This document shows positions 2,564 to 5,315 of a DNA stretch of 6,325 nt, in pieces. A program made the position numbers and the translations under genes. This stretch comes from Candidatus Tectimicrobiota bacterium (GTDB lineage Bacteria > JACPSX01). The notes under the pieces are model-generated. The model was not told the DNA's origin. It made no database searches and worked only from the letters and a program-made list of their open reading frames with translations. Location of the stretch: positions 1 through 6,325 of the forward strand of contig JACPSX010000155.1 in NCBI GenBank assembly GCA_016193065.1. Direction: 5' to 3'. How positions within the stretch are numbered: the first letter of the stretch is position 1; every line of letters starts with the position of its first letter.

Positions 2564-4066
2564 GTGACCGTTGACCTGATCCGGGATCAGGTGAGAAAGT
2601 GCTTGTATGAGCTCGAGACCGATTCCCGCCTGGTTCGAGCCGGCCTCAAAACAGAAGCACAATCCGCCGCCATCCTGGAGCGCTACCGCGATCTGCAATC
2701 CCTGCGGACTTTGGATTTCTTGCTCCAAGTCCAGGAACAGACGCAAATCCCCCGGGAGAGGGAGCGCAGCCGCCGCCTTTACTATACCTGCCTCTCTCTT
2801 CACCTGTACGGTCACGTGGCCCCCTTGAGCGACTCACTAGACACCCGGCTCGCGCAAACCGAAGTCCTGATGGATGGGAACCCGGTCAACTATTTTGATC
2901 TTCCGATTCTGATCGAACGGGAGGAGAGCGCGATTGTCCGCGAAGATCTCGACAGGCAGCGCCTGCAAGTCGTCGAGGACACCAACGACGTCCGGCTTCA
3001 GATGCTCCGGGAGGTTCTCGCCTGCCTGCAAGAGCACCTTCACCACAGCAGCTACCTGGAATACTGCCGGGCCAAAAAAAAGGTGGACTACGGCAAGCTG
3101 GCCGCTGCTCTGGAGCCGGCTATCTCCAAACTCGAAGGACTCTATCGGAAGCATATGGGCAACTGGCTGGCGCGCCACGACTTGGGGGAGCTCGGCCGGA
3201 TCCCCGAGTGCCACGTCCACTATCTTCTGGCCCTGCGCCCGCTCGACAAAGGCGGGACCCTTCCCCTGGAGAGGATCGTGGGGGGCGCACTGCAAGCCAT
3301 TGGTCTCCCCCTATCCTCCTTTCCAAACATCCATCTCGACCCCCAGGAAAGACCCCAGAAAAACCCCCGGGCCTGCTGTTACAGCCTCTCAGTCCCTGAT
3401 GAAATTCATCTCATCACCAAACCGACCGGGAGTCTGGTGGATTTCAACACGTTCCTCCACGAGTCCGGCCACGCCTTTCACTACGCCTGCACCGGAGCCG
3501 ATCTGGACTTCGAGTTCAAGAAACTTGCCCCTTCTTACGCCCTCACAGAGACGTACGCGTTTCTGCTGCAGAAGCTGTCCTGCGAGCCGGCTTGGCTGGA
3601 AGCTTTTCTAGGGGTCGACCGGCGCGACACCCGCACGATCAGCTACTACACGATCCTGAGCGACCTCTACCTGTTTATGCGCTACACGGCCAAGTTCTCT
3701 TACGAGACCGGCCTCTTCGGACAGGCTAGCGGCAGTCTGGCGGCGGCCCGCAACCTCTACCAGGAAACCCTCACCAACCGCACCGGGTTTCTCTTCAGCC
3801 CGGCGGATTATCTCAACGATGTGGACGAGGAACTCTATTCGGCGGATTATTTGCGGGCCTGGATCGGCGAGCGCCAACTCGCCCAACACCTGCGCCGGGA
3901 ACTGGGCGAAAACTGGCCCTGCCGGGCCCAGACGGGTTCCGTGCTCAAGGCACTCTGGTCCCGGGGGGACCAGGAGGAGGTCGAAGATCTGCTGGGTTCC
4001 CTGGGCTTCGCTCCCTGGGACGCGGAACCTCTCATTTCCTGGTACCGGGATTCACTGGAAGGATGA
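2564..4066 (+). CDS. M3-like zinc metallopeptidase (oligoendopeptidase-type gluzincin)
   Basis: This 500-residue protein is probably cytoplasmic, as no signal peptide or membrane helix is seen. The active-site signature is FLHESGHAFH, with zinc ligands H299 and H303 and catalytic E300. A third ligand is likely E329 in ALTETYAF, 26 residues after the second histidine, which fits the HExxH...E pattern of family M3. The N-terminal 290 residues look mostly helical, like the substrate-enclosing lobe of thimet oligopeptidase and oligoendopeptidase F. By analogy it would cut short peptides. It is shorter than most M3 enzymes (about 600-700 residues), and the flanking sequence is not a clear match to a named subfamily, so the substrate is unknown. 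It starts with GTG at 2564 behind AGGAGG. Its stop lies 10 bases before the thioesterase-reductase ORF, so the two are almost certainly co-transcribed. Confidence 0.85.
   Translation: MTVDLIRDQVRKCLYELETDSRLVRAGLKTEAQSAAILERYRDLQSLRTLDFLLQVQEQTQIPRERERSRRLYYTCLSLHLYGHVAPLSDSLDTRLAQTEVLMDGNPVNYFDLPILIEREESAIVREDLDRQRLQVVEDTNDVRLQMLREVLACLQEHLHHSSYLEYCRAKKKVDYGKLAAALEPAISKLEGLYRKHMGNWLARHDLGELGRIPECHVHYLLALRPLDKGGTLPLERIVGGALQAIGLPLSSFPNIHLDPQERPQKNPRACCYSLSVPDEIHLITKPTGSLVDFNTFLHESGHAFHYACTGADLDFEFKKLAPSYALTETYAFLLQKLSCEPAWLEAFLGVDRRDTRTISYYTILSDLYLFMRYTAKFSYETGLFGQASGSLAAARNLYQETLTNRTGFLFSPADYLNDVDEELYSADYLRAWIGERQLAQHLRRELGENWPCRAQTGSVLKALWSRGDQEEVEDLLGSLGFAPWDAEPLISWYRDSLEG
2574..2592. repeat. 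19-bp near-perfect palindrome just inside the peptidase gene
   Basis: ACCTGATCC (2574-2582) and GGATCAGGT (2584-2592) are perfect 9-base inverted arms around a single G. The element covers roughly codons 4-10 of the peptidase gene, within 30 bases of its GTG. It could be a regulator's operator or an RNA hairpin (8-bp stem, 3-nt loop) that limits initiation, or a chance result of coding sequence. Confidence 0.4.
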
Positions 4067-4076
4067 AAGGGTCTCC

Positions 4077-5315
4077 ATGACTTTGCGGATCCCTCCATTG
4101 CCTTTGGGAAAAAGAGGAACGGTGGAAAAGACGGTCAGGCCGGAAGACACGGCTGACTTTCAGGGGTACAAGGGCGTTCCCGTGCTCTCCACCCCTTCCC
4201 TTTTCTTGTGGATGGAACTGGCCTGCGCGGCTGCCGTCGAAGGACTGCTGCCGCCAGGTCTCAAACATGTTGGCACCCGCACGGAGGCCAGGCACCTGGC
4301 GGCAACCCCCATCGGCATCAAGGTGACGGCAGAGGCTGAACTCGTGGAGGTGGATGGCCGCCGCTTAGTCTTCCGCTGTCAAGCACGGGACCCGGTGGAA
4401 GTCATCGGAGAAGGGATCCACGAGCGCTGCATCGTGGACTGGAAGCAGTTTTGTCGGGCCCTAGAAGAAAAGGAGCAGCTTGGAAAGGAGAAAACCATGA
4501 ATCGTGAAAGCACTGAGCCCCTGCAGGGGAACTGGGGGGTTATCTTGGGCGCTTCAAGCGGCTTCGGAGAGGCCACCAGCCTGGAGCTGGCCCGCCATGG
4601 CATGAACATCTTCGGCGTTCACCTGGATCGCAAGGCGACTCTCCCCAATGTGGAGCGGATCAAGGGACAAATCCAGGAGGCGGGTGGCAAGGCCGTTTTC
4701 TTCAACATCAACGCCGCCGATCCCGAGCAGCGCCAAAAAGCTCTGGACCAGATGCAGGAAAAGCTCCAAGAACAGGGGAATCACGGAAGCATCCGGGTCT
4801 TCCTGCATTCTCTGGCCTTCGGTACTCTCAAGCCGTATTACGATGCGGACCCCGCCCAGGCGCTCACCGCCGCTCAAATGAACATGACCCTGGACGTCAT
4901 GGCTCACAGCCTGGTTTACTGGGTGCAAGACCTGGTAGCCCGCAAGATGATCGGCCGCGGCAGCCGGATCTTTGCCATGACCAGCTCGGGAGGACAGCAC
5001 GTGTTCCGAACCTACGGCGCCGTCTCGGCAGCCAAGGCGGCCCTGGAATCTCACATACGCCAGCTTGCCCTGGAACTGGCCCCTCTGGGAATCACCGCCA
5101 ACTCGATCCGGGCGGGAGTTACAGATACCCCTGCCCTCCGCAAGATTCCCGGACACGAGCAGATGGTCGAGATGGCGCAGCGCCGCAATCCCAGCGGACG
5201 ATTAACCACGCCTCAGGACGTGGCGACGGCCATCGCCGCCCTGAGCTTGCCGGCAACTCAATGGATGACGGGGAACGTCATCGGGGTCGACGGAGGAGAG
5301 GACATCGTCGGGTAA
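4077..5315 (+). CDS. FlK-type hotdog thioesterase fused in frame to an SDR enoyl reductase
   Basis: The ORF encodes 412 residues without an internal stop. Residues 1-128 are a hotdog-fold thioesterase like fluoroacetyl-CoA thioesterase FlK. T39 (in VLSTPSLF), E47 (in LWMEL) and H73 (in EARHLAATPIG) reproduce the spacing of FlK's T42/E50/H76 triad, and G66 matches FlK's G69. It should hydrolyse an acyl-CoA thioester; the substrate is not evident. Residues 129-140 are a charged linker (ALEEKEQLGKEKT). From residue 141 an FabL/FabI-like reductase follows, with its own start (see the entry at 4497). The ATG at 4077 has AAAGGG 5 bases upstream and lies 10 bases after the peptidase stop. Typical thioesterases of this family end near residue 128, so either this is a true fusion, or the stop was lost by an indel or sequence error. 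The open frame continues upstream to an ATG at 3819, but that part is a peptidase shadow. Confidence 0.75.
   Translation: MTLRIPPLPLGKRGTVEKTVRPEDTADFQGYKGVPVLSTPSLFLWMELACAAAVEGLLPPGLKHVGTRTEARHLAATPIGIKVTAEAELVEVDGRRLVFRCQARDPVEVIGEGIHERCIVDWKQFCRALEEKEQLGKEKTMNRESTEPLQGNWGVILGASSGFGEATSLELARHGMNIFGVHLDRKATLPNVERIKGQIQEAGGKAVFFNINAADPEQRQKALDQMQEKLQEQGNHGSIRVFLHSLAFGTLKPYYDADPAQALTAAQMNMTLDVMAHSLVYWVQDLVARKMIGRGSRIFAMTSSGGQHVFRTYGAVSAAKAALESHIRQLALELAPLGITANSIRAGVTDTPALRKIPGHEQMVEMAQRRNPSGRLTTPQDVATAIAALSLPATQWMTGNVIGVDGGEDIVG
4484..4490 (+). promoter_or_regulatory. Internal ribosome-binding site for the enoyl reductase
   Basis: AAAGGAG followed by the 6-base spacer AAAACC and ATG at 4497 is a near-ideal initiation site. 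It lies within the coding sequence of the longer thioesterase-reductase ORF, in the linker between the two domains, and so supports separate translation of the reductase. Confidence 0.75.
4497..5315 (+). CDS. Enoyl-[ACP] reductase-like SDR (FabL/FabI type), internal start
   Basis: Starting at the internal ATG gives a 272-residue protein, the normal size for an enoyl reductase. The Rossmann nucleotide motif is GASSGFGEA (residues 18-26). The active site is Y173 with K180 (YGAVSAAK), a Y-x6-K spacing typical of FabI/FabL enoyl-ACP reductases rather than the Y-x3-K of ordinary ketoreductases. LHSLAFG (103-109) resembles the FabI stretch around HSIGF. The end, GNVIGVDGGEDI, is the usual SDR C-terminus. 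It would reduce the trans-2 double bond of an acyl-ACP or acyl-CoA using NAD(P)H, the last step of fatty acid elongation. Which cofactor and carrier it uses cannot be read here. It lies in the same frame as the upstream thioesterase with no stop between, so it may be made alone, as part of the fusion, or both. A related non-FAS reductase of the SDR superfamily is the alternative. Confidence 0.8.
   Translation: MNRESTEPLQGNWGVILGASSGFGEATSLELARHGMNIFGVHLDRKATLPNVERIKGQIQEAGGKAVFFNINAADPEQRQKALDQMQEKLQEQGNHGSIRVFLHSLAFGTLKPYYDADPAQALTAAQMNMTLDVMAHSLVYWVQDLVARKMIGRGSRIFAMTSSGGQHVFRTYGAVSAAKAALESHIRQLALELAPLGITANSIRAGVTDTPALRKIPGHEQMVEMAQRRNPSGRLTTPQDVATAIAALSLPATQWMTGNVIGVDGGEDIVG

Follow-up and report, generated by a model that had tools for sequence, protein, structure and literature searches.

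Does an open frame that spans two enzyme domains encode one bifunctional enzyme, or does it correspond to two ordinary genes that have become joined, either in the organism or during assembly? This question is raised by positions 4077-5312 of the window (the whole stretch of DNA analysed, 6,325 nucleotides long), whose translation is a single frame of 412 residues with zero internal stops. The features involved are the following:

2564 to 4066, forward strand: gene of 500 amino acids with an HExxH motif, weakly M3-peptidase-like; upstream neighbour on the same strand
4077 to 5315, forward strand: open reading frame of 412 codons, closed by TAA, in which an FlK-type thioesterase, a linker and an SDR reductase are fused (translation, Pfam)
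4077 to 4475, forward strand: FlK-family (hotdog) thioesterase, residues 1-133 (PF22636; phmmer to FlK structures 3p3f/3kv7)
4461 to 4496, forward strand: linker LEEKEQLGKEKT, comprising the thioesterase C-terminal tail and the reductase ribosome-binding site (FlK alignment, codon usage); the linker-spanning stretch of the fusion product reads FCRALEEKEQLGK
4484 to 4490, forward strand: Shine-Dalgarno sequence AAAGGAG, 6 bases 5' of ATG 4497 (sequence; pairing -8.7 kcal/mol)
4497 to 5315, forward strand: reductase of 272 residues read from its own start, an SDR with GASSGFG, HSLAF and Yx6K (YGAVSAAK) (Pfam, orthologue starts)

Two domains in one frame

A preliminary description of this DNA had placed a thioesterase and an enoyl reductase in one stop-free frame, and the 412-residue translation bears this out, with two Pfam domains over their cut-offs: (i) PF22636 (FlK) at residues 20-122, with 110.5 bits against a cut-off of 27; and (ii) PF13561 (adh_short_C2) at residues 158-407, with 148.9 bits against the same value. 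Both domains are complete in the fused frame.

The thioesterase belongs to the FlK family by its profile score and by the positions of its catalytic residues in the alignment. Alignment by phmmer to 3p3f and 3kv7 reaches residue 133, which corresponds approximately to residue 136 of the 139 of FlK; T39, E47 and H73 align with T42, E50 and H76 of FlK (an offset of 3 relative to the 139-residue chains), and we take Thr42, Glu50 and His76 to be the catalytic residues of that enzyme. Hence, the window thioesterase has in common with FlK, the fluoroacetyl-CoA thioesterase of Streptomyces cattleya, the family, the catalytic positions and the length up to the natural C-terminus, but FlK is free-standing whereas the window thioesterase is joined to a reductase. 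Specificity for fluoroacetyl-CoA is not implied by these likenesses and need not be its role.

Regarding the reductase, the earlier label "FabL-like" is accurate as a statement of resemblance but not of membership. The best match by sequence among solved structures is the enoyl-ACP reductase 3oic, an apo FabL structure (PMC9260719), and the FabL signature, Yx6K without an internal methionine (PMC9260719), is present as YGAVSAAK. This spacing is conserved across the orthologues and is common to FabL and FabI enoyl-ACP reductases; the other SDRs read from the source genome show the YxxxK spacing. Nevertheless, the window reductase falls far under the NCBIfam equivalog cut-offs for both FabL (NF005975, 142.5-143.8 bits vs 328) and FabI (NF005717, 96.9 bits vs 337), and it carries HSLAF where the alignment shows NNAA in 3oic. 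Judging from these comparisons, the most fitting description of it is an enoyl-reductase-like SDR from a widespread group without a name in Pfam and NCBIfam. Members of this group, with Yx6K and HSLAF and with scores under the FabL and FabI cut-offs, are found, at E <= 1e-50, in 69 of the 95 genomes searched from one phylum.

The internal start and the linker

The start of the reductase had been described as near-optimal, and this holds: AAAGGAG is followed by a 6-base spacer (AAAACC, 4491-4496) and by ATG at 4497-4499. When 800 in-frame internal ATGs from 427 kb of the same genome were used as background, AAGGAG was present at a start-like distance in four of them (0.5%), so that the ribosome-binding site of the window stands above background, and predicted anti-Shine-Dalgarno pairing at least as strong as -8.7 kcal/mol was present in 58 (7%). 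The strongest evidence that 4497 would be the original reductase start is provided by the orthologues, whose first residue, from 77% identity downwards, coincides with the position equivalent to M141 or lies only a few residues from it, as illustrated by MNLQNPLADHWALILGASSGFGEA (74% identity) and MDEARPLQDEWALILGASSGFGEA (77% identity). Most of them have an in-frame stop just 5' of the start.

The charged linker of 12 residues was confirmed by the FlK alignment and by the tails of free-standing FlKs. The homology to FlK stays in frame up to residue 133, and most free-standing FlKs end 1-14 residues past this matching point with similar charged tails (e.g., RVENKKKS*, KKAEKKKSF*). Residues 134-140 (QLGKEKT), in turn, are the translated leader of the reductase, Shine-Dalgarno sequence included. 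As read from these alignments, the linker is an ordinary charged thioesterase tail followed by the reductase ribosome-binding site.

The same few bases bear on the first rival explanation, i.e., that a sequencing or assembly error has joined, through one wrong base, two ordinary genes separated by an ATGA overlap or by a stop in the linker. A TGA does lie in the +1 frame at 4498-4500, where it overlaps the reductase ATG, and A-runs occur at 4468-4471 and 4491-4494, exactly as had been pointed out. Furthermore, the +1 frame contains a TAG at approximately 4462 and, in consequence, a one-base slip masking the ATGA overlap would sit between approximately 4463 and 4497, an interval that includes both AAAA runs. 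On the other hand, the overlap is weak evidence because an A after ATG is common, and the AAAA runs are short; runs of this length are seldom miscalled by short-read machines. Scored by the codon usage of the genome, the fused frame exceeds the +1 frame by some 0.7 nats per codon over the 11 linker codons, a short stretch; the difference lends mild support to the frame being real. The draft character of the genome (294 contigs, 86% complete, with the locus on a 7.3-kb contig) favours an error. Against it, the SDR and FlK matches of the source genome are devoid of internal stops, and the assembly, therefore, gives no impression of frequent frame breaks. All in all, we consider an error unlikely, albeit the most serious of the rivals to a real fusion. 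As for the kind of change, of the seven codons that follow residue 133, five (CAG, GGA, AAG, GAG and AAA) could turn into a stop by a single substitution and, hence, a point change could have removed the stop as easily as an indel.

A strong internal start within an open frame could also reflect regulated dual coding, in which the join would control how much fusion is made relative to free reductase, in the manner of known genes with an in-frame internal start. In Cas11b (PMC11899642) and in the gene embedded in Ms6 lysA (PMC3111421), such a start yields a shorter C-terminal product, as it would in the window frame; those starts were demonstrated experimentally, whereas that of the window is read from the sequence. 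Regulated dual coding is, however, highly improbable: the arrangement does not recur, no other regulatory element was seen, and RNA folding near the internal start is no stronger than in shuffled sequences, with little predicted structure over the Shine-Dalgarno sequence. A stem-loop controlling the internal start was likewise considered and rejected, since none exceeds the shuffles.

Distribution of the fusion and other fusions of FlK

The preliminary description had named a stop between the two domains in related genomes as its refuting condition. By this criterion, the idea of a conserved bifunctional enzyme did not survive the examination of orthologues, which are separate genes and, where checked, not neighbours of an FlK gene. 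The comparison genomes are related to the source genome at the level of domain only ("same domain"), and the reductase orthologues examined, from many phyla, have about 53-77% identity. The search with the reductase gave 80 loci from many phyla; neither the upstream stretches of these loci nor those of further orthologues contained an in-frame thioesterase, and no FlK match was present at the reductase loci in flanks of up to 5 kb. In 12 whole genomes with close reductases, any FlK present sits on a different contig. In the phylum mentioned above, that of the candidate division NC10 record, none of the reductase matches in the 69 genomes includes a thioesterase. Seen from the other partner, FlK homologues across 386 diverse genomes are nearly all encoded in short frames of free-standing size, and no similar fused locus was found in the plasmid collection. 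Thus, the thioesterase-reductase architecture was found in no other genome examined. The separation of the genes in relatives would also suit an assembly error; in any case, non-recurrence is compatible with a fusion private to the source organism.

Two kinds of apparent fusion were discarded. Extensions of orthologues into the thioesterase (loci L216, of genome G424, and L097; one of them up to residue 99) are chance similarities with no FlK upstream. In genome G084, the length of the open frame around FlK comes only from its upstream extension; the protein terminates in the usual way once the FlK domain is complete.

FlK is fused to other enzymes elsewhere. A second FlK of the source genome shares one frame with a RidA/YjgF domain (302 amino acids; contig C232, L002:1081-1989, reverse strand), and the joint lacks both a start codon and a ribosome-binding site. 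FlK-RidA as one frame was not found among the 386 genomes; in genome G047 (contig C6, 112564-113577), separate genes for RidA and FlK lie side by side on the same strand. A fusion of FlK to a three-domain thiamine pyrophosphate (TPP) enzyme, of 691-692 amino acids, is encoded in two genomes of one genus, G097 and G365 (L169:205-2280 and L170:113-2188, both on the reverse strand). A TPP enzyme also adjoins the FlK-RidA gene in the source genome. As in the window, FlK is the N-terminal part of a longer, stop-free enzyme in all these fusions. In contrast to the window, their joints have no strong internal start and, unlike the window fusion, which does not recur in the genomes examined, FlK-TPP is present in two genomes of a genus.

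Since FlK-RidA and FlK-TPP exist, FlK tolerates C-terminal fusion. These two fusions, the former in the source genome and the latter in two genomes of another genus, are without an evident internal start, and they offer some support to the idea that the window frame encodes a thioesterase-reductase committed to both functions and favoured by selection for the channelling of substrates, with the internal start as a little-used relic. This idea is improbable: the ribosome-binding site is near consensus and has not decayed, and the fusion, or even the adjacency of the two genes, is absent from every relative examined. A further proposal is that of a real and stably kept gene, which would provide a tethered thioesterase-enoyl reductase together with free reductase. 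It would be one of several independent fusions of FlK to metabolic enzymes in which FlK may clean up the acyl-CoA by-products of its partner. We regard this proposal as rather doubtful.

Origin and meaning of the join

The explanation that we hold to be probable is that two operon genes lying next to each other fused through stop loss, with the downstream start kept, and that this fusion is, as far as is known, private to this lineage. Most likely, then, the join is a private event involving neighbouring genes and not a new kind of system. The steps would be as follows: (i) a gene for an FlK-family acyl-CoA thioesterase and a gene for a Yx6K SDR of the enoyl-reductase type would have been adjacent and co-directional; (ii) the stop codon of the thioesterase, whose normal end would be found no more than some 10 codons away from residue 133, as in FlK homologues, would have been lost, presumably by substitution or small indel, leaving one frame; (iii) translation would then read on through the 5' leader of the reductase (QLGKEKT) into the reductase itself; and (iv) ribosomes starting at 4077 would produce the 412-residue fusion, which may tether both activities, while those binding AAAGGAG would produce the ordinary 272-residue reductase from the ancestral ATG at 4497.

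Because the downstream start has been retained, the cell probably makes free reductase and some fusion. Of what the preliminary description proposed, the open frame is confirmed and the free reductase of 272 residues is well supported by the orthologue starts, but the orthologues speak against a conserved bifunctional enzyme.

If real, the locus would be a snapshot of a stop-loss gene fusion before the downstream start decays, and it would pair FlK with an enoyl-reductase-type SDR, a combination for which no report was found in the literature; a search of the literature on FlK fusions and on stop-loss fusions with retained starts yielded no direct precedent. It also matters for annotation, since a gene finder would call one bifunctional enzyme of 412 residues where the cell may mainly make a reductase of 272. 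If, instead, the join were an assembly slip, it would advise caution when inferring fusions from single draft genomes.

As regards the genes around the fused frame, the upstream gene (2564-4066) stops 10 bases 5' of the thioesterase start at 4077; owing to this short gap, both look like one operon, and the upstream gene is probably an operon partner of the fused frame. Its protein carries a zinc-peptidase-like motif (HESGH), its similarity to the M3 family is very weak, and a Pfam search with it gave no match. On the minus strand, between 109 and 2385, genes for a DUF3501 protein, a GlpC-like Fe-S protein and a rubrerythrin lie in a row.
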